Below, piece after piece: positions 1,598 to 17,801 of a stretch of 21,989 bases of DNA. Below the pieces are notes generated by a model. It searched no databases. It was not told the DNA's origin and saw only the letters and a list, made by a program, of their open reading frames with translations. Origin of the DNA: a virus; the IMG/VR virus record IMGVR_UViG_3300042478_000317, positions 1 to 21,989 of that record; one strand, 5' to 3'. The translations under genes and the position numbers were made by a program. The first letter of the stretch is position 1, and every line of letters begins with the position of its first letter.

Positions 1598-3268
1598 TTA
1601 GTACGCACCCATGATGTTCATGAGCGTTATATCTATTTCTTTGGAGTTTGCATCAAGAGATGCGTATGTTGCTGTTACTAATTTAGTAAGACCATTAATT
1701 GTTGTTACGGTTGTACCAGAAGCTATAAGTGTTGAACCAAGTGTTGGTGCTGAGTATGCGCTAGCTGAGTTAATTGCTACCCAAGCAGAACCAGTCCATA
1801 CTGACATTTCACCAGTTGCTGAGTTAAAATAAAGAGCACCAGTAAGTAACGCATTTCCATCATTGTCTAATGTTGGAGGTACTGTCTTAGACCCAAGATA
1901 CCTGTCATCAAATTGGTCATATACTGTTGCTGCACTGGAGGCAGAAGTTTGTGCCGAGCTTGCCGAAGTAGCAGCCGAAGATGCAGATGTTGCTGCAGAT
2001 GAGGCGGATGTCGCTGCTTCAGAAGCAGATGTGGTCGCAGTTGCTGCAGAGTTAGATGCAGTTGTAGCACTATTAGCAGCCGATGTAGCACTTGTTGCAG
2101 CAGCGGTTGCACTGGCAGCAGCGCTTGTAGCGCTGGTTGCTGCAGAGGTTTGTGATGTTAAAGCACTAGATGCTGATGTAGAAGCCGATGATGCAGATGT
2201 AGCAGCAGCGGTAGCCGAAGAAGCAGCAGCGGTTTCGCTTGATGCTGCAGCGGTCGCATACCCTGCAATTGAGGCAACAGATGCTGCAGCTGTGGTAGCA
2301 CTATTGGCTGCACTAGTTGCACTTGTTGCTGCAGATGTCGCCGATGTTGCAGCTGACGTTTGGCTAGTTAATGCAGATGACGCACTGGTCGCTGCTGCAG
2401 TTGCAGATGCTGCTGCGGATGTAGCAGAAGTGGCTGCAGAAGTTTGGGATGTAAGAGCAGAGGCTGCTGAAGTAGTAGCAGCTGTTGCTGACACAGCAGC
2501 ACTGGTTGCCGAAGTTGCTGCAGCAGTGGCTGAGTTTGCAGCTGATGTAGCAGATGTTTGAATAGCAGCTACCGAGTTAGCAGCTGATGTGGCTGATGTT
2601 GCAGCGGATGCAGCAGAAGTTGCTGCTGCAGTAGCACTGGTTGCTGCAGATGCTGCGGATGTCGCAGCAGCAGCAACTTGAGCATCAGCAAAGTCTTTAC
2701 GAACAGCATCGCTAGATGATGTTGGTGTAGCAAGGTTTGTAATCTTAAATCCACCAGCAGATAAATCAGAACCTAAAGTTGCGGTGGAGTATGTGCCACC
2801 AGTAATTGTTGCGGTAGATGTAAACGTACCGCTGATTGTTGCACCAGTAATAGTTGGTGTGTTAACTGTTGGTGATGTAAGAGTTTTAGAAGCCAGGGTC
2901 TGTGCTCCACCTGTGCCAACAATATCTCCAGTTACTCCATGTGCAGAGGTTGCTGCTTCATGTGAACGAAAATCAGAAAAGTCCAATGCAGAAACACCGT
3001 GTTCTACAATTGCGCCAATTGAGTGTGCCTTGGAGCTTGTGCCATCAACGCCACGAGTTACCGTATATGCAGTACCAACGAGGGCGGTTACCGTTACGAT
3101 TTCTTCGTTAGCGGTATCCTTTTCAAGAATAAGTGTGAATGGATACTGCGATGGTAAACCAGAAGCAGCAGCCAGCGACAAGCTTGTGCTTGTCGTGCTA
3201 GCGTCAATAGCACTAGACAGTGTTGTCTTAGCAGCGGTTGAGCTATAATAACGTGCAATTGTTGGCAT
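1598..3268 (-). CDS. Tail fibre protein with Ala/Ser/Thr heptad-repeat shaft
   Basis: This 556-aa protein has a clear fibre layout. Residues 1-95 form a beta module ending in TVTRGVDGTSSKAHSIGAIV, typical of phage tail proteins. Residues 125-180 carry the KTLTSPTVNTPTITG type of repeat and GGFKITNLATPTSSSDAV. Residues 197-448 are an almost pure Ala/Ser/Thr shaft with seven-residue periodicity. Residues 455-500 contain a YFNSATGEMSVWTGSAWV module common near fibre C-termini, followed by a short beta tail. Phage fibre shafts with such Ala/Ser/Thr repeats are known and usually trimerise. It lies three nt after the 299-aa connector gene, with GAGG upstream of its ATG. It probably links the virion to the receptor-binding parts. 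Long antisense frames on the plus strand over the shaft are shadows of the repeat. Confidence 0.88.
   Translation of the reverse strand: MPTIARYYSSTAAKTTLSSAIDASTTSTSLSLAAASGLPSQYPFTLILEKDTANEEIVTVTALVGTAYTVTRGVDGTSSKAHSIGAIVEHGVSALDFSDFRSHEAATSAHGVTGDIVGTGGAQTLASKTLTSPTVNTPTITGATISGTFTSTATITGGTYSTATLGSDLSAGGFKITNLATPTSSSDAVRKDFADAQVAAAATSAASAATSATAAATSAASAATSATSAANSVAAIQTSATSAANSATAAATSATSAAVSATAATTSAASALTSQTSAATSATSAAASATAAATSASSALTSQTSAATSATSAATSATSAANSATTAAASVASIAGYATAAASSETAAASSATAAATSASSASTSASSALTSQTSAATSATSAAASATAAATSATSAANSATTASNSAATATTSASEAATSASSAATSASSAATSASSAQTSASSAATVYDQFDDRYLGSKTVPPTLDNDGNALLTGALYFNSATGEMSVWTGSAWVAINSASAYSAPTLGSTLIASGTTVTTINGLTKLVTATYASLDANSKEIDITLMNIMGAY
1925..2680 (-). 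repeat. Degenerate heptad (21-bp) repeat coding the fibre shaft
   Basis: This segment codes about 252 residues made of Ala, Ser and Thr, with occasional Asn, Gln, Val and Leu. The phrase ALTSQTSAATSATSAA occurs three times, with its Leu at residues 272, 300 and 370. The spacings are 28 and 70 residues, both multiples of seven, so the heptad register is kept between copies. The DNA copies differ in third positions. Confidence 0.85.
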
Positions 3269-5432: not shown

Positions 5433-6410
5433 CTACGCTGTTGCGATGCTTGACTTGGTCTGGATGACGTAACGTGCTTCCTTGCGGAAGATGTTCCATC
5501 CGAGTAGACCCTTCCAACCCGCTGGGCGGAAGCGCATCAACTTATCTGTCACAGGACCGATAACTGTCTTTGGCTCGTAAGAAACAGCCTCAAGAAGAGC
5601 CTGCTTTCCGAGAAGAACAGTTGCGTATACCTTTGAAGTGCCAGAGCCAGAGATTGACTCGCAGCGTGGAGATTCGATATAACGAACCTGGTCGTAGATA
5701 CCGATTTCACCATTCCATAGGTTGGCAACGCCAGCCTCTGTGTAGGTGTGAGGCAACTGCCATACAGCAGAACCAGATGATTGAGCTTCTGAACGAAGGT
5801 CATAAGATACATCTGGGTGAATTAGTGCTGTGTAGAGTCCGCCATCGCGTGGCTGTACGTTTGCGCCACGAAGCTTGGCAACACCCTTACGTGCAAGAGC
5901 AGCGGTTAGGTATGCAGCTGTGGTGCTTGAAGATACGTTCTCACCGTTGATGGTTGATTCATCAGCAGAAGCTGTACCTGTGTAACGCATTGTTGCAAGA
6001 GATGTTAGCTTGCCCCAGACCAAAGAGTCTAGAGAGTCGCGCATGTTGAATGACAACATGTCTGCAACAGCTGGGTCAATTGCTGAAAGTGACTCAAGAG
6101 CCAAGCGCTCAGTTGTGATTACAGCATTGCCGTATTCATCTACTGTAACATTCACCTTATTGGTGTTGTTAAGTGTTACTGCGTCTGGGTCTTGTGTCTG
6201 AGTTAGTGCAGTAGTTGCACGTGATAGGTCCTGATAGACCTGGAAGACGACGGTGTTACCTGGGTTTGTTACATCGACTGGGCGCTTGTCCGCAAACTTA
6301 CGGAACATTGGCTCAGAGCGAAGGTTAAACTCAATGTACTTGTCATACGCCGTCTGAATCAAGTTCGACATCGTTGATGTCGTTGTTGACGTTGCTGGTG
6401 TAGTAGGCAT
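5433..6410 (-). CDS. Major capsid protein, N4-gp56-like (HK97 fold)
   Basis: This 325-aa protein has the usual length and position of a phage major capsid protein, directly after a scaffold-like gene. The N-terminus has helical QTAYDKYIEFNLRSEPMFRK followed by RPVDVTNPGNTVVFQVYQDL, a long beta arm (E-loop-like). The centre has ITTERLALESLSAIDPAVAD and a domain with RDGGLYTALIHPDVSYDLRS. Later come WNGEIGIYDQVRYIESPR and VLLGKQALLEAVSYEPKTVI, and an aromatic end near RFRPAGWKGLLGW. The order and pattern of these blocks match the N4-gp56 capsid family by eye, not by search. An AAGGA SD precedes the ATG. It should form the icosahedral shell with the scaffold as assembly partner. Confidence 0.88.
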   Translation of the reverse strand: MPTTPATSTTTSTMSNLIQTAYDKYIEFNLRSEPMFRKFADKRPVDVTNPGNTVVFQVYQDLSRATTALTQTQDPDAVTLNNTNKVNVTVDEYGNAVITTERLALESLSAIDPAVADMLSFNMRDSLDSLVWGKLTSLATMRYTGTASADESTINGENVSSSTTAAYLTAALARKGVAKLRGANVQPRDGGLYTALIHPDVSYDLRSEAQSSGSAVWQLPHTYTEAGVANLWNGEIGIYDQVRYIESPRCESISGSGTSKVYATVLLGKQALLEAVSYEPKTVIGPVTDKLMRFRPAGWKGLLGWNIFRKEARYVIQTKSSIATA

Positions 6411-6444: not shown

Positions 6445-6894
6445 TCAGCCTTTGAGTAGATTACTTAATTCCTCTGGCGAACCTACGTTCGCAATACGAG
6501 AAGCTAAGTCTTGACCCACGTATGGGTCAATATCTCCATTATCAAAGTCTGACATTCGCTCATATGATTGAGCGTCAGGGGACGAATCCCCTTCTTCAAC
6601 GGCTTCGATACCGAATGCATCGCCGTATTCATTTAACCATTGTGCGACAGCATCCTCGTCCGCTTCAATTTCATCTGGGATGAATTTTGCGATTCTTGGA
6701 TTGAGTCCGAAACTTTCTAGGATTTCGCCAACGGATGCTTCGTGACTTTGTGTAGTAAACTCTGCAAGGATTTCATCACGTTCTTTAACTTGCTTAGAAA
6801 GTGCGTCAATCTGTTTGCGAAGTTTCTTTACAAGGTCAGTTCCACTGCCATTGTCTTCATCTTCGTAGTCGTACTCTAGGTATTCTTCTGCCAT
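6445..6894 (-). CDS. Capsid scaffold protein (149 aa)
   Basis: This short, strongly acidic protein starts MAEEYLEYDYEDEDNGSG. It has a heptad coiled coil at residues about 20-45 (LVKKLRKQIDALSKQVKERD) and an acidic helical C-terminus ending PEELSNLLKG. Small size, acidity, coiled coil and the slot immediately before the capsid gene are the usual signs of a phage scaffold. Scaffold proteins guide capsid assembly and leave before or during DNA packaging. An AGGGAG SD lies upstream of the ATG, after a 141-nt gap, the largest non-coding interval inside the gene block. No protease motif is visible here or in neighbouring genes, so the exit route is unclear. Confidence 0.8.
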   Translation of the reverse strand: MAEEYLEYDYEDEDNGSGTDLVKKLRKQIDALSKQVKERDEILAEFTTQSHEASVGEILESFGLNPRIAKFIPDEIEADEDAVAQWLNEYGDAFGIEAVEEGDSSPDAQSYERMSDFDNGDIDPYVGQDLASRIANVGSPEELSNLLKG

Positions 6895-7035: not shown

Positions 7036-8724
7036 TTAAACGTCAGGTGTTCTTAAACGAGAACCTAACGATGCGCGGTCAATTGCTCCACGTTGCTGGA
7101 ACTTGGCGCGTTCTCTTGATGCAAGTTTCTTAGTCTTGATACCAACTTCAGCGCCACCTGCAAGACCAAGTGATTCACGAGCTAAGTCTTCTGTACCAGC
7201 GGTTTCGCCATACAGTGACATCAAGCGTCGGTAATCATCTTGTTCGCGGGCTGCACCTTGGAAGGCACGTTCGGCAGCATCTGCCTTACCTGCCTTGGTA
7301 ATCTCTTCGGCAAAGCCTCTAGAGATACCTGTATCACCAAATCCTGCACGAGCAGCAGCTCCACCAACTTCAGCAGAGGTGTACATTAACTTGGCTTGTT
7401 CTGTTGAATACTGGTAGCGAGAGTTGATAGCATCAAATGCTTTCTCATTATCTAGAAGATAAGCAACCAGGTCGCCAGATGATAAGCCGTAATAATCTTT
7501 AAGTGATTTAACAATTTGCTGGTCTGCCTTTTGTAGCGCATTCTGTGCAATGTTAACACGTGCGGTAAACTCACCGACGCTAATTGAGTTAGCAATAAGG
7601 TTACCTAAATCTTCTGGTTGGTCATAGAACATTTCTGGCAATCCTGCTTCTTGCATGATTTCTCTATAGCCATCTTCAGCAGCAATGTATTCTGCAGGGG
7701 CTAGAAGTCTATCGCCAGGGCGACCTTTGCCGTCTGCTATACGCTTACGTATAGCTTCATTAGCAGCAAACCGTGTCTTATATGCATCGCTTGTATAAAT
7801 AGTATTAAGAATTTGTTCGTCAGTAGGCATAATGTTGTCTTCATATACCTTGTCTATGGTAGACATTAGTGACTTAATAAATGTGTCACCAAGACCAGTA
7901 TTCTCAAACATTCTCATAACTGAATCACGAGCACCAAAGTCTTTATATGATTCAATTAAATTACCAAGAGAACCATCAGACATCTGTTGATATACCTCAA
8001 CAACGCCACCAGTTTTACGAACTGTACGTGTGCCAGTAACCTTTGGCTTAGCAGCATCGGCTGCAGCAGCAGCCTGCATAGCTGCAATCTGAGCTGTTAA
8101 TGCAGCAATCTGGTCAAGAATTGCACCTGTTGCTGCTGCATCAGGACCGCTACCGCCAGCACCAGTATTAGAGTCGCCACCAAAAGCTGGACTAGAAGTT
8201 GGTGTGGGTGATGGAGTAGGGGTGGGTGATGGAGTAGGGGTGGGTGATGGAGTGGGGGTGGGTGATGGAGTGGGTGTTGTGGTAGGTGTTGGGGTAGGTG
8301 AAGGAGTCGGACTTGGAGTCGGACTTGGAGTCGGACTTGGAGTCGGTGAAGGACTAGGAGTTGGCGAAGCAGTTGGTTTTGGTGAAGCAGTTGGTGTTGG
8401 TGAAGGGGTTATTGTTTCATTTTTATATCCAACATTTACCGTAGTGCCAGACCAAATCATGTTTCCACCCTTATATTTAGGGTTAGATTCAAACTTTGGA
8501 TTTAAGTCTAAAATTTCTGCAACTGTTGTGTTGTTCTTTTTAGCGATAGCTGAAAGAGTATCACCAGGTTTAACTGTAACAGTTACTGGAACCTGTTTTG
8601 TTGCAGCTTGAGAAGCAGCATTAGCTGCTTGCATTTGAGAAAAGCGGGCTCGTTCTGCTGCGTCTTGTTGTGCAGCGGTTTGTACGGAAATTACCGAACT
8701 ATAAAAATCGTCATATGCTCCCAT
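7036..8724 (-). CDS. LysM protein with Pro/Thr/Ser linker, probable virion protein
   Basis: This 562-aa protein has four parts. Residues 1-45 are a helical Ala/Gln-rich arm. Residues about 47-98 are a LysM domain ([20 protein letters not shown], ending IWSGTTVNV). Residues about 105-179 are a Pro/Thr/Ser linker ([10 protein letters not shown] type). Residues 230-562 are a helical region with [20 protein letters not shown] and [20 protein letters not shown]. LysM domains bind the GlcNAc backbone of peptidoglycan. There is no signal peptide and no visible murein hydrolase domain. It begins two nt after the other N-terminal LysM gene. By position and composition it is probably an internal or tail-associated virion protein that contacts murein at DNA entry. 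An endolysin is less likely because no catalytic part is seen. Confidence 0.8.
8206..8350 (-). repeat. 18-bp and 12-bp tandem repeats coding a Pro/Thr/Ser linker
   Basis: On the plus strand an 18-bp unit opening GGGTGATGGAGTAG recurs at 8206, 8224, 8242 and 8260 with only A/G variation. After a degenerate stretch, a 12-bp unit GGAGTCGGACTT repeats at 8303, 8315 and 8327, with a partial fourth copy at 8339. Both unit lengths are multiples of three, so copy-number change would lengthen or shorten the linker without a frameshift. Confidence 0.9.
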
Positions 8725-8726
8725 GT

Positions 8727-10016
8727 TTACCCCAAGAATCCAAAGTCTTTAAGAATGCGTGAAGCAATAGAAGTCTTCTCCTCTTTTGCTGTTTGGGTTG
8801 TGTCCCACTTAGCGCTGCGTCGTGCAAGTTTCTTTGTGTCGTACAAGTTCATTGTGGTGAAGTTGCCCTTTTCATCTTGCATGTTTATAGCTCTTTGTAC
8901 ATAATCATCATTAAGGTCAACTTGGTCAATATCCATTTCCCAAGTATCTGCAACGGCTTTAAGCCATGGGTCTGCAGCCTCACGAAGAGTCTGACCTTGG
9001 TCAATAAATTTAGCCAAGCCAGGAGCAAATGATTTTGCTCTAGCCTGTAGGTCATTATCGACATCTTCTGGGTTAAGGGTTCCAGCAACTAGACCCTTCA
9101 TGCTTGCTTCAAACCATTTATCAAAGCTTGCATTAGATGTTGTCTGTTGGAATCCATAATCACGAGCCATGCCGTATAACTTGCCAGCCATGGTTTCTAG
9201 CTTTCCAGCTAGACCAGTGTAAACAACACGACCATCAATAGAGTTTGTTTTAACAAACTTAATTGAGTCAGCCATTAGTTTATTGAGGTAGTCTTGGTCA
9301 AATCTAACAACCTTGCCATCCTTGATGATGGCTTGCTTCATCATATTGTTGGCATATTCGACTGCCTCAGAAGCGCTAATAGGTAAACCCATAGAAGCAA
9401 ATTGTTTAACAATATTACTTGCATTTTTTTGTAGGTCTGCAGCAAACTGACCTGGGTTGGTTGCTTTAGCAAAATCAAACTGGCGTTGAGTATCTGTCTG
9501 GTCACGATACCAAGATGTGCCTTTAACAATAGCTTCTTGTAGCGCTGGGTCGGTAATCATTGGACCACCGTCAACACCAAGAATTCTATTAAGTGCAGCT
9601 AATAAACTTGGGTCATTGTTGATAACTGCAGCAGTAATTCCAAATGCTTTTTGAAGCATAGCCATTGATAATTTATCGGCTGTCAGTGGAACTGCGGTAG
9701 GTGAGTCAGTTGACATACTTAGATTATCTGTAAAAGGATTTGGTGAAGCTGTTGGTGATGGGGTAAGCCCAGCCATTGAAGCTTCTTCTCCTCTGCGCCA
9801 ATCGCTTGTGCCAGGAAAATTATTAGTCATAGGGGTGGAGCCCGAACCAGGTATTGTTATCTTAGTTCCAGCAAATAATGTATTACCATTATTATACTTA
9901 GGGTTTGTTGTAAGTGCTGGATTAGCTTTAAGAATTGCAGAAACTGTAGTTCCGTTTGCTTTGGCAATAGAACTAAGTGTTTGACCAGACCTGACTGTTA
10001 CTTTTGTTTCAGCCAT
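8727..10016 (-). CDS. N-terminal LysM protein (429 aa), probable virion protein
   Basis: Residues about 5-56 are a LysM domain ([20 protein letters not shown], closing with [11 protein letters not shown]). A short Pro/Ser/Thr linker (residues about 60-105, [14 protein letters not shown]) follows. The rest is mostly helical and ends with SLYxxx-like [16 protein letters not shown] and SRILKDFGF. LysM suggests peptidoglycan binding; no hydrolase motif is visible, and there is no signal peptide. The start overlaps the stop of the 271-aa gene (TAATG), and the next gene repeats the LysM-linker-helical plan, so the two may be old duplicates with diverged C-termini. The likely site of action is the virion, during DNA delivery through the cell wall. 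Confidence 0.8.
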
Positions 10017-10831
10017 TACTCAACCACCGTTCCGATAGCATTAGGGTCTTTAAGAAGACTTTGGATAATCTTCAAGAAATTCTTTGTTGCAAAAGATTCT
10101 GCAAAGTCGGGACGACTTCTAGCGAAATTTTGTGCGTAGATAGCAGGGTCAAAACCAGTTGTTTGTGTTCCCTTACTTGTCGAGGTTCCTAAAGACGCGC
10201 CTTTGGCTGGACCAGTAGTAGTGGTAAACCCATCATAGATACTTGGTTCTTTTTTAGCAGCAGCATTAGCGCCCATTCTGTAGGCATCAATCTCTTCTTT
10301 AGTAGCAGTTCTACCAATCTCAGATTCAAAAGTTTTATTTATATAATCTGCAGCATTAGATGGACCATACTGTGTTGTGGTTTCAGTACGAACTTTTTGA
10401 GTTCCATATTTTTTGGTACTACCCTCGCCACCTGTGTAACTTGCTGGATTCCATACATTGAGATACATCTTTGGGTCGCCAGTTGCACCAGACCCAGGAG
10501 TTCCTACCCAATCAACAGCATCGTCCCATACGGACTGCCATTTCTTTTCTGGTATACCAGCCTTCTTGAGAATTGCAATAAAGCTTTCGTAGTATTTACG
10601 AACTTCGCTACCCTTTTTAGCTGTAGCTGCGCTGTACTTAAACCAAGACTTAGCCTGGACATCATTGATGCCAGCCTCTGGGTTAATACCAGGAAGCTTG
10701 ATAGGAGCAACGTTTAACTTCTTTGCAGCTTCTGCATCTTTGACCGCTTGTTCATATTCAATCAATGCTGCTTGGTACTGCTTATCGCCTATCTTACCTT
10801 TTGGGTAATCCGAACGCTTTGGTTTCTTCAC
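10016..10831 (-). CDS. Helical phage protein (271 aa), probable internal virion protein
   Basis: The start is GTG at 10831, overlapping the stop of the 1653-aa gene as GTGA. The N-terminus is basic and helical (KKPKRSDYPKGKIGDKQYQA). The centre has a Trp-containing segment (KKWQSVWDDAVDWVG). A helical block with DYINKTFESEIGRTATKEEI follows, then a Gly/Thr-rich linker and a helical tail (ARSRPDFAESFATKNFLKII). No catalytic or membrane motif is seen. Coupling on both sides (GTGA upstream, TAATG downstream) ties it to the giant protein and the LysM protein, suggesting a shared complex made in related amounts. The role in an internal core or DNA-ejection set is inferred. Confidence 0.75.
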   Translation of the reverse strand: MKKPKRSDYPKGKIGDKQYQAALIEYEQAVKDAEAAKKLNVAPIKLPGINPEAGINDVQAKSWFKYSAATAKKGSEVRKYYESFIAILKKAGIPEKKWQSVWDDAVDWVGTPGSGATGDPKMYLNVWNPASYTGGEGSTKKYGTQKVRTETTTQYGPSNAADYINKTFESEIGRTATKEEIDAYRMGANAAAKKEPSIYDGFTTTTGPAKGASLGTSTSKGTQTTGFDPAIYAQNFARSRPDFAESFATKNFLKIIQSLLKDPNAIGTVVE

Positions 10832-13800
10832 TTTGTCACCACGAATTCATTGTCTAGTTCTGGCATGTTGTTTAACCATCTTGTGGCAAATGCATCAAAT
10901 TCATCAGATGCTGTCTGTAAGAAGTCATAATGGAACTGTGAGAACTGTTGTTTAAGCAACAGCTTTCTTTCATCGCTATTGTTTGGTCGGTCATACTCGT
11001 TCTTAAAGTTACGAGCCTTACCTGCCCAGAAAGCAATTTCTTCCCATTTGGTATTGCCAGTAGAGTAAGCGTAAGTTCTCCAATCAAGATTGCTGGAGAT
11101 AGTTTCAACTGCTGCAATGGTTCCATTCCAGTAGTCTTTACGTTCTTCGTCGCGTTGCTCTACCCAACCCTTGTAGTCATTCTCAATGTCATCTACCATG
11201 TCATCAAAGACACGTTTGATACCAGAGTATTCATATCTAGCTTCATAGGTTGAGGCAATTCCATACTGCTTCATCATGGCACTGCGCCAATCAACAGCCT
11301 TCTGATACTCAGCCCAACCAACACGAGCTTGAGCTGACTTCTTTAGCTCGTCTTCGTTTTTCTTCTGAGTAATAGGGTTATTAAACCCTCCAGCAAACTT
11401 CATTCTTTTGTAGATAGAAGCTACTTCTGTTGAATAATCATTTGGTCCACTACCAGTACCTGCAATATCACCATAACCAGATGACAACATTCCAGCATAC
11501 TTTGTATTGGTATTACCAAGTTCCTCTAGCAACTTTGTGCTATTACGAAGAACTTTAATATCATTCATTGTTGCAGCTACGCCTGCAACGTTCTTTTGGT
11601 TAGACCCAACAAGTGCTAGGGAATCCATTCCCCACTCTTCAATCATAACCTTCTGTGCAATGTCATAATCGCCGTTAGCCATCTCGACTAAGTCTGCATA
11701 ATATGAAGTAGCAGCACGAGTTACTGGGTCAAATGTTGCTGAGATAGGTGCGTTGAATTGAACAACAGACCTAATAAATGCCATGTTACCTGCTGCCTTA
11801 GCAGCTGATTCCATTGTAGGTGGTTGACCAACACGACCGTTTGCTACCCACTCAGAAAAACCTTTACGCCATTGGGCATAAACTTCATCAGTGAATCGCT
11901 CACTCTTCTCAAGTCCTATAAGCGAGAACGCTGTGCGGACTGGGTATGGCAACTTACCTGAGTCAATTAATGACTGAAGGTAGGCTGGAACCATTGTGTT
12001 CTTTACCTTCTCGGCAAGATTCTTACCTTCTACTGGATAACCACCATATAGAATAGTAGATTCATAGACATCATCGCCAAGTGTTTCACGTAGAGATGTT
12101 GCTACTTGCTCACCATAAAGTTTCCATGGACCAACGCCTAATCCGTTATCAATGATTTCAGATATTGCTGCTGTACCAAACCAAGAGATAGATGGGTCTG
12201 CAACCATAAATTCCATCTGCTTAGGGTTGAACTTAATTCCACCACCACGAGCATCTGAGTATGGCTTTAGCGCTGTCTTAGCCCAGTCAGGTAACTTATT
12301 TCCAAATGGAAGTGGATACTTAACAGATACTGCCACTCCAGCTGGAACATCCTTGATTGAAGAATAAGTGTTTCCATCTTGGTCTTCGTAAGCTTCATAC
12401 TTATCAAACGCTTGCTGGATACTGTTGTACCAGTAAGCATTCATTGGGTTGCGAGCCAATAGGCGAAGCGCAACTGCTTGGGAGTTGAAGAAAGCCAAGG
12501 GGAAGCTCATTGCATAACGTGCCGTATACATACCATTGGTAAGACGACGTGATGAGTAAAGCGTTTCTTCAACTCGACTTAGCGCCTTACGGTATGCAAC
12601 TTGACGAATTTCATTATTTACTACGGCTTCTGATACATCAATACCAGACCGTTGTGCTGCATTAATCAGCGTCTTCATTTCGTCACGAGCGTAAGACAAG
12701 AACAATGGGTTACGAACTAACCGTGTTTCAGTAAGTGAAAGAACTTTCCATGCTGCGTTAGTTGCTCCACCTACGCGAGCAAGGACTTGCTCAGCGCCAG
12801 TTAGGTCAGAAAGCTTAAGGCTTGGTCCATCAATTTCTTTAAGTAGGTCTGTTCTGCCGTAAAGCATTGCATCTACTTCTTGGTAAGTTACTGGACGTTC
12901 TGTAATAATCTTACGAAGGTCAGGGTCTGGATACATTGCATAGAGTTTTTCTCTTGTCTGTCCTACCCATGCCTGCATATCATCGCCAAAGCGTTCTTCA
13001 ATACGAAGTCTGTATTCTTTACCAGCTGGGCTGTATAGCCACTCTATGATTTCAGCGTTGGACTTTTCGCCCCTCATCATCCATCCGACTGGTAACTCAA
13101 GTTCGTTACGAACCTGACGGTTGGCAATATGTGCCAACGCATTCATATATTCTTCACGGTTCTTGCGAGGAATCTTTACGAAACGAGCACCATCTGCACG
13201 AAGTCTACGTGAAATTTCTGACTGCATTGATGCTGCATAGAAGTTTGTAGCGGTATCAATCTCTGACATGTATGCGCTAGCACCACGGACATTAGGGTCA
13301 GCTAACCCTTGAAGAGTGTATGTCTGACCATTAACTTCGATAACTTCAGCCTCTTGACCAAGAAGTTTCTTTTGTTTCAAATCTCCTTGAGCATTGGCGA
13401 ACTCTGCCCAGTCTTTACGTTCACGCTGAATAAGTTTAGCAGTGCCGTTAATGTAATCAGCAAGGCGACTCATCTCATCAAATGCGTCATCTGCTTTAGT
13501 CTGTAACTCTGTTACTTTGTCTTCAAGTTCATAATATTTATTCTGAACTGCAACATCATCGCTCTTCATCGCTTTGGCTTTAGCCTTATCACGTGCTGCA
13601 ATAAGTTTTGTTAATGACTTGTCTAAGTCATCATAAATTGTTTCAGCTTTTGCATGTGCTGTAATCTTAGGTTCTAAGTCTGCTCGATACTTTTCTACGC
13701 GGAACTGTGCAGCCTTAGCTTGCTTACGAGCATTGGCAGCAGGGCTTCCTGGCATCCACTTCTTAGCGGTTTCTTTGAGAAGACCAGTATTGTAGATAAC

Positions 13801-15789
13801 ATTATCTACACCAGGTACTGCATTCTTTACAAGTTCCATTGACTCAAGAGCCATACTCGCACGAGCAAATGGGTCTACCATTGAGTTCTTTGGTATATAT
13901 GCAAGACGAAGTAGGTTCAAGTTGCTAAACACCATGTTAGCTAAGTCAAGGAATTGACCAGTGTTCATGGCTGCTCTAGATAATTTTGCGCCATAAAATT
14001 GACCTTGGGTAACCTTTGCACCTTTACCTGCAACGCGACGAGCGTTGAAGATAACTTCGGTTTCAAGTCTACGGAAGTCAAGCATTGGAAGATTCTGTGC
14101 TTCATTTGATACAGACAAGAAGTTCTGTACGTTGATTCCGCCATTTTCGTCTGGAACAAAACCATTCTTAACAGCATATTCTTTGATACTGTCACGACTT
14201 TGGTTCATGCGGATATGCCAGTTCTTAATCTGGTTGACAGCGTCTTTGACGTTGCCAATATCTTGCATATCTGTAATGCCATAATATTTAGCAAGACGAC
14301 CCATGACGCTTTCTTCAATACGACCAAGTGCAATAGCACGTTGGGTATCGCTTTGAGCATCAAGGAACATCTCAACCATACGACGCTTGTACATAGCACC
14401 TTCGGTTCCCTTAAGGAACTGAAGACGGTTTAAGTCAGACAGTAAATCGTTGGCTGCTTCAAATTTACGTGGGTTAGAAATATTAATGTAACCTTGTGGA
14501 CGACCTGAGCCAGTCCATGCAATAAGGCGTACTGCTCTGTCATAGACACCTGTTTGGTAAACCTGAGTTTTCCAACCACCATCGGCATCTTGACCAAACA
14601 TCTTAAGGTCACCGTATAAAGCCTGTGACTGTATCTTCTTCTTGGCTAAGCCAATCTGCTCTAGCGCTGCGTAGCGACCTGGGCGATAGCTTTCGATAAC
14701 GCCCATCTGCGCTTTTTCCATGAAGTCATCTAAGGCGCGAGCAAAGTTAGGGTCTTCAACTTTAACAGCATCGATAATCTTTTGATATCTAGATGTAAGG
14801 GTTGGGTCTAGTGCATCTAGTCCGATGCTAGCAAAGTTATCAATTGGTGATGTTGCAGTAATTCCATAGTTATCAATATGGTCTGCTGCTAATGGATTAC
14901 GTTCAAAGAATCTTTGGAATGCAGCAGTATCTCCACGTTCTGCAAGCAGATAATCTGCTACATCTTGGTGGTTATCTAGACGCGACATGATTGTCGCGGT
15001 TCTATATGGGTTAGATGTTTCAGATACAAGTGGGTTTGAGGCAAGCTTAGTTAAATCTGTTTCATTTACTGCGTCATCTACTAATACAGATAGACCAGTC
15101 TTGGTCTGTTGCTCTAGAGGCAAAGCCTTAGATGCAACAATCTCATCTAGTTCGCTTCTAAATACATTCATGTCGTCTGAGGTAGCAAGACGCTTTGGAC
15201 CAACGACTGCTTTTGCAGTACCGCGAACAGCAAACCCTGCACCTTTAGTTCCTAAAAACGCAAGACCTAAGTCGGTAACACCAGAGGCTAAGATTCCAGC
15301 CCACTCATCACGGAATGCTTTATCACGTTGACGGTCGTTAAATACATCAAAGTCTTTATCAAGGAATGTAGCATTAGTTACGTCGCCAAGAACAGGGGAT
15401 GTAATTTTACCAACAGCGCTAGCTGCTGCCTGTCCCATAGAAATCTTTTCAGCTTGTTTCTTTGAGAAACGATAGCTTTCAGTTAAGCCACCTTTACCTT
15501 TAGCCATAGCTTGAGGTGTAAGTAGCGCAGCAGAAACAGTTTGAGTTACTGGTTGTACGATTTTCTCGCCAACAAAACTAAGTGCTGCCATGGCTGGATT
15601 AATAATCCTGCCAAGAATAGGTTTCTTTGACCCTGCTTCAATTGCTCCCATTACTTTAGGGACAATTGCTTGTTCTGCTTTTCCTACTTTGGTATTGTCT
15701 TTCTTAAACTTATCAACCTTGGAAAGTTTTGGTTCCTGAGTAGGGTCTTTGACTATAGAGGGGTCATTCCACCATTCTGTTAGGGACAT
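10828..15789 (-). CDS. Giant helical phage protein (1653 aa), probable internal virion protein
   Basis: At 1653 aa this is the largest gene in the window. Residues about 40-200 hold small-residue-rich, partly hydrophobic helices (SAALLTPQAMAKGK; DLGLAFLGTKGAGFAVRG). Residues about 685-815 are a long charged coiled coil (DLDKSLTKLIAARDKAKAKA). Residues about 1000-1120 hold a region with LVRNPLFLSYARDEMKTLI and MYTARYAMSFPLAFFNSQAV, reminiscent of large polyvalent or ejection proteins. The C-terminus is charged and helical with many Trp. No enzyme motif is recognisable. A strong AAGGAGG SD lies nine nt upstream of the ATG. Position between portal and capsid is unusual for a tape measure. The best guess is a DNA-ejection or core protein analogous in role to T7 gp16; a polyvalent protein delivered to the host is an alternative. 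Confidence 0.82.
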   Translation of the reverse strand: MSLTEWWNDPSIVKDPTQEPKLSKVDKFKKDNTKVGKAEQAIVPKVMGAIEAGSKKPILGRIINPAMAALSFVGEKIVQPVTQTVSAALLTPQAMAKGKGGLTESYRFSKKQAEKISMGQAAASAVGKITSPVLGDVTNATFLDKDFDVFNDRQRDKAFRDEWAGILASGVTDLGLAFLGTKGAGFAVRGTAKAVVGPKRLATSDDMNVFRSELDEIVASKALPLEQQTKTGLSVLVDDAVNETDLTKLASNPLVSETSNPYRTATIMSRLDNHQDVADYLLAERGDTAAFQRFFERNPLAADHIDNYGITATSPIDNFASIGLDALDPTLTSRYQKIIDAVKVEDPNFARALDDFMEKAQMGVIESYRPGRYAALEQIGLAKKKIQSQALYGDLKMFGQDADGGWKTQVYQTGVYDRAVRLIAWTGSGRPQGYINISNPRKFEAANDLLSDLNRLQFLKGTEGAMYKRRMVEMFLDAQSDTQRAIALGRIEESVMGRLAKYYGITDMQDIGNVKDAVNQIKNWHIRMNQSRDSIKEYAVKNGFVPDENGGINVQNFLSVSNEAQNLPMLDFRRLETEVIFNARRVAGKGAKVTQGQFYGAKLSRAAMNTGQFLDLANMVFSNLNLLRLAYIPKNSMVDPFARASMALESMELVKNAVPGVDNVIYNTGLLKETAKKWMPGSPAANARKQAKAAQFRVEKYRADLEPKITAHAKAETIYDDLDKSLTKLIAARDKAKAKAMKSDDVAVQNKYYELEDKVTELQTKADDAFDEMSRLADYINGTAKLIQRERKDWAEFANAQGDLKQKKLLGQEAEVIEVNGQTYTLQGLADPNVRGASAYMSEIDTATNFYAASMQSEISRRLRADGARFVKIPRKNREEYMNALAHIANRQVRNELELPVGWMMRGEKSNAEIIEWLYSPAGKEYRLRIEERFGDDMQAWVGQTREKLYAMYPDPDLRKIITERPVTYQEVDAMLYGRTDLLKEIDGPSLKLSDLTGAEQVLARVGGATNAAWKVLSLTETRLVRNPLFLSYARDEMKTLINAAQRSGIDVSEAVVNNEIRQVAYRKALSRVEETLYSSRRLTNGMYTARYAMSFPLAFFNSQAVALRLLARNPMNAYWYNSIQQAFDKYEAYEDQDGNTYSSIKDVPAGVAVSVKYPLPFGNKLPDWAKTALKPYSDARGGGIKFNPKQMEFMVADPSISWFGTAAISEIIDNGLGVGPWKLYGEQVATSLRETLGDDVYESTILYGGYPVEGKNLAEKVKNTMVPAYLQSLIDSGKLPYPVRTAFSLIGLEKSERFTDEVYAQWRKGFSEWVANGRVGQPPTMESAAKAAGNMAFIRSVVQFNAPISATFDPVTRAATSYYADLVEMANGDYDIAQKVMIEEWGMDSLALVGSNQKNVAGVAATMNDIKVLRNSTKLLEELGNTNTKYAGMLSSGYGDIAGTGSGPNDYSTEVASIYKRMKFAGGFNNPITQKKNEDELKKSAQARVGWAEYQKAVDWRSAMMKQYGIASTYEARYEYSGIKRVFDDMVDDIENDYKGWVEQRDEERKDYWNGTIAAVETISSNLDWRTYAYSTGNTKWEEIAFWAGKARNFKNEYDRPNNSDERKLLLKQQFSQFHYDFLQTASDEFDAFATRWLNNMPELDNEFVVTK

Positions 15790-15940
15790 TAGGTGTAGCC
15801 TCCTTAGCCGTTAGTTCCTCTAATAATGAAATTCGGTCATCGTCGGATTCAAAGGGGAACTTGGCTAAATCCCAAGCAACTGGAGCCATTTCAAATCCAA
15901 GATGTTCAAGGTTCTCTTCGAACTTCTTGAGTATCTTCAT
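15764..15940 (-). CDS. Short acidic helical protein (58 aa), function unknown
   Basis: A 58-codon frame starts at an ATG at 15940, overlapping the preceding TGA as ATGA, and ends with TGA at 15764, 26 nt inside the giant gene. The product begins MKILKKFEENLEHLGFEMAP and has VAWDLAKFPFESDDDRISLL, an amphipathic acidic design. GGAG lies nine nt upstream. It fills an otherwise empty 147-nt gap with good overlaps on both sides, and the SD of the giant gene lies within its 3' end. It may act as a leader that couples translation into the giant gene as well as a protein in its own right. No family is recognised. Confidence 0.7.
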   Translation of the reverse strand: MKILKKFEENLEHLGFEMAPVAWDLAKFPFESDDDRISLLEELTAKEATPNVPNRMVE

Positions 15941-16353
15941 TCTGCTTGACTCCGTAAATACTTAACAAAAGCTTTCATAGTTCCAGATGATTCTGGAGAA
16001 TCCGCAAACTGTGCCATCAATGGCATGTATTTAGCTAGCTTTGATAAATCTTTTAATTGATTATCAATTGGACTTTTTAATCCTAAGATTTCTCTACCAG
16101 GACCAGGACCAACGTCCACACCAGCAGTCACAGGTTCATCTGGACGCTGGGTGGGCGCTGTTAAAGGCACTATGCCTGCCATTGGATTTATCTGTGGCAT
16201 TTGTGGTGTAGGTGTTTTAGCCATTGGCGCACCAGCTTGCATATCTTGAAATTCCTTTTGCTCGCCATAGGCAGCATTAGGAAGTTGTTTTGCTCCCTGG
16301 CGGTCGGTTCTCTTAGAGAACGGACCTGGACCCGAAGGTTGCATCATTGACAT
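15937..16353 (-). CDS. Pro/Met/Gln-rich small structural protein (138 aa)
   Basis: This 138-aa protein is mostly disordered in appearance. The N-terminus (PSGPGPFSKRTDRQGAKQLP, then NAAYGEQKEFQDMQAGAPM) is followed by a Pro-rich stretch (TPTPQMPQINPMAG; TAPTQRPDEP) and a short helical C-terminus (LKDLSKLAKYMPLMAQFA). It lies eight nt after the Lys/Ala-rich LysM gene and overlaps the 58-aa gene by four nt. Proteins of this composition occur near portals in aquatic phages, from memory only. A role as a flexible linker or assembly factor around portal and core is possible but unproven. No motif points to an enzyme. Confidence 0.75.
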   Translation of the reverse strand: MSMMQPSGPGPFSKRTDRQGAKQLPNAAYGEQKEFQDMQAGAPMAKTPTPQMPQINPMAGIVPLTAPTQRPDEPVTAGVDVGPGPGREILGLKSPIDNQLKDLSKLAKYMPLMAQFADSPESSGTMKAFVKYLRSQAE

Positions 16354-16361
16354 TTATTTAC

Positions 16362-17801
16362 CTACTTCTTTGGAATATTAACCTTTGTTCCTGACCAAAT
16401 CATTGAACCCTGCTTGTACTTCTTCTTCTTCATAATTTCAGGGTTTGCTGCACGAATCTCTGATAGAGATACTCCTGCATTCTTTGCAATACCTGACAAG
16501 GTATCGCCTTTCTTTACGGTGTATCTTGAATCAACTTTAGTTGTTGAGCCACCGCCAGTAGAAGCTACTGTTGGTCTTGTCTTAGAACCAGCCTTATATG
16601 CTGCAGTTCCTGGTACAAGTGATGAACCATCTTTGCCGTAGCGAAGTTCTTTAGGCTTGTTCTTCTTTTCAGCCTTTGCAATAAGAGCATTAAGTTCGTC
16701 CATACGTTGACGACGAGTCTTACCTACAACACCCAAGCTTGCTAGTGATGCAAGCTGAGATAATTGCTGTTGTGCTCCTTGTCGACCTGCAGTTGCTTTG
16801 CTCTTACCTTTACCAGTAATATCAGCAAGTTTTTGCTCAAGACGATTAATTTCATCAAAGTCTTTTTTGGTTGAGCCTTTAGCTAAGCTAACTACTTCAC
16901 CAGCGACTGCGCCAACGACTCCGCCTTTACCAGCAGCTTTAATTTTTCTAAACTTTGGTTTAGCAGCTTTAGCCTTGGCTTTAGCATTAGCCTCTGCCTT
17001 CATTTTATCTAAAGCTTGTGCTCCAGCGGTTGGTTTAGATGGTGCAGATGTTTTTCCATCTACGGTAATTTTAGTACGTGGCTTAGATGCAGCAGCTTTC
17101 TTAGCTTCAACACGCTTCTTAGCTTCTTCAAGACCTTTAGCCTCATTCTTCTTTAGGTCTGCAAGTGTAGGACGCTTTGGTGCAGTTGTCTTAGCTGTTG
17201 TTTTTGGCTCTGCTTTAGCAGCAGGCTTAGCTTCTGCACTACCTGGCTTAGTTCCCTTCCAGTTTTTGCGTTCTTCTGGTGTCATCTTTGCCCATGCAGC
17301 CTTATTAGCTGCAGACTTTTCTGCACGAGTCATTGTCTTTGAAGACGCAGGCTTCTTAACTGGTGCTGATGCAGCTGGTTTAGCAGGTGCTTTCTTAGCA
17401 GCAGCCTTTTTAACTGCAGCTTTCTTTACTGGTGCTTTCTTTTCGAGAGCAGCAGCAGGCTTTTTGACAGCAGCTTTTTTCGCTGGGGCTTTCTTAGCAG
17501 GTGCTTCCGCTTCTCCTGCTTTCTTGCCACCGTATTCGCCGAATTCATCTGCCATAGATTGACGGAACTTTTCAAGTTCTGCGTTTCTTGTAGCATCAAA
17601 TTCAGCTTTGCTTAGATAAGCCTTCTTGCCAAGTTCTTTCTTGGCTGTATCTGCCATATCCTTAAGCGCTAGTCTATCTTCAGCAGTAATTTTGCCTGTG
17701 ATGTCTTTACGTACAGCTTTTACTTTCCCTGGGAAAGCTTTCTTTGCTGCAGTCTTAGCGTCTTTCTTGGCTTGGCGATACTTATATGGTTTCTTCGCCA
17801 T
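16362..17801 (-). CDS. Histone-H1-like Lys/Ala-rich protein with C-terminal LysM domain
   Basis: This 479-aa protein combines two unlike parts. The N-terminus (about 1-100) is charged and helical. Residues about 100-310 are Lys/Ala/Pro-rich (KKAPAKKAAVKKPAA type), like the tails of histone H1 and of actinobacterial HupB that bind DNA. Residues about 426-479 are a LysM domain (RYTVKKGDTLSGIAKNAGVS, closing IWSGTKVNIPKK). The LysM end shares the KY-x2-G-x5-GT signature of the other two LysM proteins here. AAGGA lies upstream of the ATG. A protein able to bind DNA with one part and murein with the other could be packaged with the genome or anchor entering DNA at the wall. That is inference; no signal peptide or enzyme is visible. 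Confidence 0.8.
   Translation of the reverse strand: MAKKPYKYRQAKKDAKTAAKKAFPGKVKAVRKDITGKITAEDRLALKDMADTAKKELGKKAYLSKAEFDATRNAELEKFRQSMADEFGEYGGKKAGEAEAPAKKAPAKKAAVKKPAAALEKKAPVKKAAVKKAAAKKAPAKPAASAPVKKPASSKTMTRAEKSAANKAAWAKMTPEERKNWKGTKPGSAEAKPAAKAEPKTTAKTTAPKRPTLADLKKNEAKGLEEAKKRVEAKKAAASKPRTKITVDGKTSAPSKPTAGAQALDKMKAEANAKAKAKAAKPKFRKIKAAGKGGVVGAVAGEVVSLAKGSTKKDFDEINRLEQKLADITGKGKSKATAGRQGAQQQLSQLASLASLGVVGKTRRQRMDELNALIAKAEKKNKPKELRYGKDGSSLVPGTAAYKAGSKTRPTVASTGGGSTTKVDSRYTVKKGDTLSGIAKNAGVSLSEIRAANPEIMKKKKYKQGSMIWSGTKVNIPKK

Follow-up and report, generated by a model that had tools for sequence, protein, structure and literature searches.

A probable entry module with LysM domains in the place of murein hydrolase heads in an uncultured, likely actinobacterial short-tailed phage

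We analysed a stretch of DNA from an uncultured virus, IMG/VR record IMGVR_UViG_3300042478_000317 (21,989 bases; hereafter the window), in which three genes with LysM domains accompany a giant helical protein between the portal and capsid genes. All recognised genes of the window are on the minus strand. In the transcribed order they are terminase, portal, an open reading frame (ORF) of 49 amino acids (aa), LysM-A, g138, g58, the giant, g271, LysM-B, LysM-C, a scaffold-like gene and capsid, followed 3' by small genes, an adaptor-like gene and a fiber gene (coordinates in Table 1). A preliminary description of this DNA had named the three LysM genes, the 1653-aa giant and a 271-aa gene, and all of them are present as ORFs. 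It had also stated that two LysM genes flank the giant and that about 2,900 residues lie between portal and scaffold. Both statements need correction: LysM-B and LysM-C are downstream of the giant and only LysM-A is upstream, and the block from LysM-A to LysM-C encodes about 3590 residues, because LysM-A, g138 and g58 had been omitted from the earlier figure.

Each of the three proteins has one domain above the curated cut-off of the Pfam LysM family (PF01476, 20.9 bits), namely residues 427-477 of LysM-A (E 3.1e-9, 37.1 bits), 7-56 of LysM-B (E 1.9e-10, 40.9 bits) and 50-77 of LysM-C (E 1.3e-9, 38.3 bits). Chance matches are excluded, since the cut-off is exceeded by 16 to 20 bits. The fold was modelled for LysM-B alone. 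The AlphaFold2 model (73 sequences) had a mean predicted local distance difference test score (pLDDT) of 83.5 and consisted of the LysM, a disordered linker (residues 61-116) and a helical carrier (118-424). The head was predicted as strand-helix-helix-strand, which is the LysM fold, with pLDDT of 81-96 in blocks of 10 residues. It matched 4uz2, the LysM of an NlpC/P60 endopeptidase (Z 7.8, root-mean-square deviation 1.0), and 7r1l, a complex with a trisaccharide of N-acetylglucosamine (GlcNAc) (Z 7.2), and LysM-like domains of contractile baseplates appeared in the same list; the VIA-align comparison of LysM-B concerns this LysM part, the carrier being scarcely covered.

We then estimated the ratio of nonsynonymous to synonymous differences (pN/pS) between the window and relatives whose core-region synonymous divergence was 0.1-1.5, in pairs that all share the window and are non-independent. 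The LysM values were 0.27 for A (20 pairs), 0.31 for B (17 pairs) and 0.46 for C (22 pairs), and those of the linkers were 0.52, 0.72 and 0.64. The core regions gave 0.51 (residues 1-300 of A), 0.23 (B carrier) and 0.30 (C carrier). Thus, all three LysMs are under purifying selection, and each is more constrained than its own linker. The LysM consensus retains the GDTL-, IA- and N-like positions, which line the LysM groove, and from the sequence the heads would be expected to bind a GlcNAc-containing glycan. None of the three proteins has a hydrophobic N-terminal segment, so export by the Sec pathway is unlikely. Exchange of LysMs among A, B and C within a genome was rejected: in 33 loci with all three, mean identities within genomes (47-49%) were not above those between genomes (50-53%).

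No DNA relative of the window was found by megablast in 50,697 phage records. At the protein level the terminase large subunit (TerL) matched 31 records, of which 29 are Streptomyces phages and two are named ct2KA10. One of the latter, OX376641, is titled LanE43-AprF5 and is Planktophila phage F5, which was cultivated with a 'Ca. Planktophila' isolate from freshwater (PMC10202952). TerL identity was 46% to LanE43AprF5 and 42% to FlowerPower, a member of the Beephvirinae; we do not assign the window to this subfamily. FlowerPower and Abafar have the same gene order as the window, that is, portal, g138 (phrog_8200), giant (phrog_10618; 1494 bits for FlowerPower gp9), a second small protein at the g271 position, B carrier (phrog_6654), C carrier (phrog_8424), scaffold and capsid. 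Microscopy shows that Abafar (Manuelvirus, Beephvirinae), which encodes TerL and homologs of the B and C carriers, is a podovirus: its capsid is icosahedral and its tail very short (PMC11536984). The order is also kept in LanE43AprF5, except that g271 was not recognised there. This phage shares with the window's lineage TerL, portal, g138, giant, both carriers, capsid, WhiB and an exported SLT-like gene, but its module has no recognised LysM and its A position is occupied by a 178-aa proteasome-like protein (L003:17155-17691, minus strand), between portal and g138. An HslV/proteasome-like protein of 177 aa is encoded in G001 as well (L163:10176-10709, minus strand), away from the structural module. 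G001 is a near-complete relative of 41,893 bases, in which the giant is 96% identical, TerL spans both contig ends and WhiB is also encoded. A scan of bacterial genome contigs for a host gave 61 pattern matches, none of them a relative. Judged from its relatives, the window virus is likely an actinobacterial short-tailed phage.

The comparison with FlowerPower also explains the build of LysM-B. Its carrier, phrog_6654, is common to LysM-B, FlowerPower gp11 and FlowerPower gp12. The N-terminus placed on the carrier is an NlpC/P60 peptidase in gp11 (E 1.7e-29) and an SLT transglycosylase domain in gp12 (E 3.6e-5). FlowerPower thus has two copies with enzyme heads, whereas the window has one copy with a LysM; in FlowerPower, gp7 and gp9-gp13 gave no LysM match, and the slot after the portal has none either. 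In a Foldseek search of a viral structure library, the B model joined a FlowerPower minor tail protein (E 8.7e-13) and also matched a 465-aa protein at 53% identity, so a relative of LysM-B has already been deposited.

To survey the heads, viral contigs were scanned with capsid and giant alignments, which gave loci L004-L162. Each scan covered the best 80 matches, so that the sample leans toward near relatives, and some contigs are present twice. Carrier B was found in at least 119 ORFs in at least 115 loci. Heads were labelled by profiles built in this analysis on 94 distinct carrier rows: LysM in 42, none in 19, an unrecognised N-terminus in 15, SLT_3-type in eight, SLT in four, and NlpC/P60 and Phage_lysozyme2 in three each. 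When nine B proteins were submitted to Pfam, the expected head was returned for six (L036, L049, L070, L035 and both of L067), covering the SLT_3, SLT, Phage_lysozyme2 and NlpC/P60 types.

Before a tree of the carrier was computed, near-identical proteins were removed, as were rows cut at the 3' end and those 5'-cut rows in which no head was recognised; in the tree, a near-identical relative represents the B of the window. All 42 LysM heads fell within one clade of 52 rows (Shimodaira-Hasegawa-like approximate likelihood ratio test support 100), together with eight headless and two unrecognised rows, and the recognised enzyme heads fell outside it. The tree requires at least 17 changes among the seven head labels, and at least 10 among LysM, enzyme and neither, although it was made by a quick method and has several long branches and weak deep forks. 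On the evidence of these homologies, LysM-B is a carrier with an apparently interchangeable N-terminal head, which is a cutter in some phages and a LysM in others.

Within the window's clade (101 loci, counted as loci and not as contigs), the slot between portal and g138 holds a LysM in 71 of 71 loci with both neighbours. Outside it the slot has a LysM in none of 11 such loci (14 tried), FlowerPower and F5 included. Of 56 distinct complete C carriers from the clade, not counting that of the window, 34 have a LysM, against five of 43 outside. Two uncultured phages outside the clade, L044 and L049, resemble the window in having an N-terminal LysM-like domain on C, but they keep a lysozyme-like head on B, so that cutter and binder occur in one module; here Pfam covered C of L044, with LysM below cut-off, and B of L049. 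All three genes are present in 42 distinct clade loci: LysM is on A, B and C in 26 of these, on A and B in seven and on A only in nine, and the combination of A and C was not seen. One locus scored as A and B, L103, has its C split into two ORFs, perhaps by an assembly error. On the giant tree the LysM state changes seven times for B and six times for C. The A-type LysM is therefore fixed in our sample, and the B- and C-type LysMs are variable accessories. An ordered gain, with C only if B is present, is not claimed (independent-pairs sign test, median p 0.25). LysM-A is the least understood part of the module.

We also searched for murein enzymes, since the preliminary description had seen no hydrolase. 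Muralytic families were not found in 10 + 3 window proteins with Pfam, nor in six with PHROGs, a scope that excludes five ORFs of 40-66 aa. Matches of A, B and C to PHROG endolysins and transglycosylases fall on or around the LysM stretch, as do sub-cut-off NCBIfam matches to cell-wall enzymes. No catalytic murein domain was recognised in A, B, C, g271 or the giant. Nor did a hidden catalytic domain come to light in the giant: Pfam searches with 21 giants gave nine families, each in a single giant (best E 1.6e-4), all coiled-coil or unrelated.

Outside the module the result is different. Family searches of 16 long clade relatives (39-42.7 kilobases, each with one to three LysMs) gave M23 in 0/16 and SLT_3 in 0/16. 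NlpC/P60 was found in one (a 160-aa open frame) and SLT in four (a frame of about 130 aa, every match below cut-off), in all cases at places other than the module. The controls FlowerPower, L083 and L049 matched as their B heads predict, and F5 gave one sub-cut-off SLT match. In G001, where the LysMs are located in the A, B and C ORFs, the Pfam scan covered 51 of 64 ORFs (portal, a 386-aa ORF, a 167-aa TerL start piece and ten ORFs judged spurious were omitted). Outside the module, all eight genomes examined encode an SLT-like protein of 125-138 aa that contains a KES motif and, from its signal-peptide-like start, would be exported; five of these genomes were picked for an SLT match (G002, G008, G012, G013, F5) and three were not (G001, G006, G011). 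The G001 gene was found by homology, the SLT profile search there being without a match. The protein is perhaps an exported lysozyme or a superinfection factor. A second open frame lies over this gene (L163:11013-11471, minus strand, and the equivalent place in L172-L175), with no stops in five of the eight genomes, one in two, and ten in F5. The ORFs in L172-L175 and L163 share the start MDI...KRGNYAV, and the frame is possibly an overlapping gene or due to chance.

A 166-aa protein of G001, which adjoins ORFs of 64 and 69 aa and has a weak VanY match below cut-off (E 0.046), may be the lysis enzyme. In G007 a 151-aa NlpC/P60-like ORF (L176:516-971) stands directly before a gene that starts like the 634-aa ORF of G006; G006 has a 168-aa protein at that place, and the VanY-like protein of G001 is similarly placed. 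The probable lysis enzyme also seems to be exchanged among relatives. The claim of no hydrolase is therefore upheld for the entry module, where none is recognised, but not for the lineage, which has candidate murein enzymes elsewhere in its genomes.

Table 1. Positions of the module, its neighbours and the SLT-like genes of relatives (window coordinates unless a locus is given).
Feature	Position	Strand	Evidence or remarks
Terminase large subunit, 629 aa	19726..21615	-	phrog_38 E 4.2e-67
Portal, 586 aa	17969..19729	-	phrog_104 E 8.3e-34; 40% identity to FlowerPower gp3
LysM-A, 479 aa	16362..17801	-	Lys/Ala-rich basic region and C-terminal LysM; Pfam LysM E 3.1e-9
LysM domain of A, residues 427-477	16371..16523	-	Pfam; pN/pS
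g138, 138 aa, phrog_8200	15937..16353	-	E 7e-42; FlowerPower gp7 homolog
g58, 58-aa small ORF	15764..15940	-	Weak match to 67-aa LanE43AprF5 ORF, E 8e-4
Giant helical protein, 1653 aa, phrog_10618	10828..15789	-	1336.9 bits, full length
g271, 271 aa, between giant and LysM-B	10016..10831	-	FlowerPower gp10 slot; weak match E 0.003
LysM-B, 429 aa	8727..10016	-	N-terminal LysM, disordered linker, helical phrog_6654 carrier domain
LysM head of B, residues 6-56	9849..10001	-	AlphaFold2, structural matches, pN/pS
Carrier domain of B	8730..9665	-	phrog_6654 E 2.4e-25; FlowerPower gp11 E 1e-18, gp12 E 2e-13
LysM-C, 562 aa	7036..8724	-	LysM near N-terminus, Thr/Pro/Ser repeat linker, phrog_8424 carrier
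LysM domain of C, residues 49-98	8431..8580	-	Pfam; pN/pS
Carrier domain of C, phrog_8424	7054..8130	-	E 1.6e-86; 35% identity to FlowerPower gp13 (without LysM)
Scaffold-like protein, phrog_7813	6445..6894	-	E 1.8e-38; weak scaffolding phrog_3760 E 0.029
Major capsid protein, N4-gp56 type	5433..6410	-	TIGR04387 E 9.1e-29; PF13252
Probable head-tail adaptor, 299 aa	3272..4171	-	SU10_adaptor E 5.7e-4 (below cut-off); phrog_7578 (unknown function) E 1.3e-99
SLT-like gene	L163:11039-11419	-	
SLT-like gene	L172:1241-1621		
SLT-like gene	L173:838-1218		
SLT-like gene	L174:633-1013		
SLT-like gene	L175:706-1083		
SLT-like gene	L167:10509-10886		
SLT-like gene	L170:12972-13349		
SLT-like gene	L003:26358-26774		

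Two repeat regions were noted in the window. The linker of LysM-C contains a long Thr/Pro/Ser repeat of about 75 residues (8185-8409), and the fiber-like gene (1598-3268) has long Ala/Ser/Thr repeats and 52% identity to a FlowerPower protein over its first 130 residues only.

The giant was compared with known ejection and tail proteins. The AlphaFold2 model of residues 560-1653 was mostly helical (pLDDT 72.5), as the preliminary description had supposed. It had no Foldseek match at E <= 0.001, and the B carrier had no match in PDB. Of the structure predictions that had been proposed, those of LysM-B and giant 560-1653 gave folded models, and the fold was recognised for the LysM of B and not for the giant. 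The proposed profile comparison was made against PDB sequences and gave chance-level matches only (best E 0.062 for the giant, 0.45 for B and 0.14 for C). Tape measure, tail tube and sheath families were absent from the window's Pfam and PHROG scans and from the 25 listed of the 28 Pfam families of the G001 ORFs scanned, in accordance with the earlier statement that no tape measure is seen.

What could the module do? Murein contact is the likely job of the LysM proteins, because homologs in the same slots of cultured phages carry NlpC/P60 and SLT domains. A carrier that holds cutters in some phages and LysMs in others, the selection on the LysMs and the lack of a hydrophobic N-terminal segment together lead us to infer that the carriers belong to the virion and come into contact with murein. 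We consider it fairly probable that the block is the entry module (short tail or ejection apparatus) of an actinobacterial podovirus, with LysM anchors where relatives have hydrolase heads. Homology, synteny, head exchange, the predicted LysM fold of B and selection on the LysMs are observed, and location in the virion, a short tail, the host, glycan binding and the time of action are inferred. The murein-contacting ejection module of the preliminary description is thereby retained as a conserved structural block with murein enzymes in the same slots of homologs, but its kinship with T7 and P22 is unsupported by sequence or fold matches.

In such an entry module, the giant, g271 and the carrier domains of B and C would form a virion sub-assembly, and LysM-A, a basic protein, may be a lineage-specific addition. 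LysM-B would present an interchangeable murein head on its flexible linker, peptidase- or lysozyme-like in relatives and LysM here. The LysM heads would bind their glycan at adsorption or ejection and hold the apparatus on the wall. The giant may line or extend a channel, by analogy alone, as no homology to T7, P22 or phi29 was found. A bolder proposal, which we regard as doubtful, is that the entry machine has swapped cutting heads for gripping ones, with several LysM anchors on flexible linkers keeping the short tail and a giant channel protein at the wall during DNA passage, and that the basic LysM-A may tether the incoming DNA end to the wall.

Several observations weigh against the entry-module interpretation. 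Three of the nine B proteins submitted to Pfam (L071, a 5'-cut SLT row, L072 and L113) returned no head. LanE43AprF5, which was isolated on Planktophila, has no recognised LysM in the A, B and C slots, and LysM is absent among the 25 listed of its 35 Pfam families. The profiles of giant, B and C match no solved ejection protein. The LysMs of B and C are dispensable, as nine of the 42 clade loci have neither, and they evolve more loosely than their carriers (pN/pS 0.31 vs 0.23 and 0.46 vs 0.30). LysM in virions is not new, and the LysM folds in contractile baseplates may be structural. Moreover, the exported SLT-like protein of the relatives may supply murein cutting in another way.

It is possible, but we think unlikely, that B and C sit permanently on the outside of the tail, as in a knob or spike base, and that their LysMs serve reversible adsorption to the wall and have no role in ejection. 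In many deposited records the B homologs of Beephvirinae are annotated as minor tail protein (in others as peptidase, glycosylase or hypothetical), the B linker is flexible, and LysMs are repeatedly gained and lost, like adsorption domains. However, the genes lie between portal and scaffold next to the giant and not next to the fiber gene, and the catalytic heads in the same slot indicate wall penetration.

Action late in infection, in which the LysM proteins assist the lysis enzyme or keep progeny on wall debris, is improbable. In phage records, the LysM part of B has matches at E <= 1e-3 only to the lysin A proteins of the Arthrobacter phages Atraxa and Sputnik (52.7% identity), and the possible lysis enzyme of the relative has no LysM. 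Nevertheless, B and C are fused to carriers that are conserved in LysM-less phages, and the genes are located in the head module. We give equally little credence to LysM-A being mainly a packaged DNA-binding protein whose LysM is a structural head fold unrelated to murein. LysM-A is Lys/Ala-rich and basic (K+R 119 vs D+E 45) and baseplates do contain LysM folds, but of the three LysMs its own shows the lowest pN/pS, and it keeps the GDTL, IA and N positions. That the giant is the tape measure of a long tail, with the LysM proteins at the tail tip, is very improbable in spite of its size and helical content, because the block is syntenic with that of Beephvirinae, the tail of Abafar is very short, no tail-tube family was seen among the 25 listed of the 28 Pfam families of G001, and the giant is located between portal and capsid.

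The entry module proposed here can be compared with other systems. phi29 gp13 and T7 gp16 belong to the virions of short-tailed phages and likewise reach murein at entry, but they carry catalytic domains, and no homology between them and the module proteins was found. In P2 gpX, R2 pyocin and phiCD508, LysM-like baseplate domains are part of virions or similar particles, as proposed for the module, but these particles are contractile and long-tailed, and an interchangeable enzyme head is not known in them. A literature search, with most subscription papers outside its reach, returned no paper linking LysM to phage ejection proteins, on LysM in freshwater actinophages or on peptidoglycan-binding LysM in phage baseplates, and we make no claim to a first description of the LysM form.

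The module is thus not a wholly new ejection machine but belongs to a lineage with wall binders in place of wall cutters. The family phrog_6654, listed as of unknown function, gains a likely job as a carrier for exchangeable murein heads, and binders and cutters are seen to share a homologous position. It becomes testable whether a grip on the wall can replace cutting it at entry, and the nearest cultured relatives for this are the Beephvirinae (Abafar) and LanE43AprF5.

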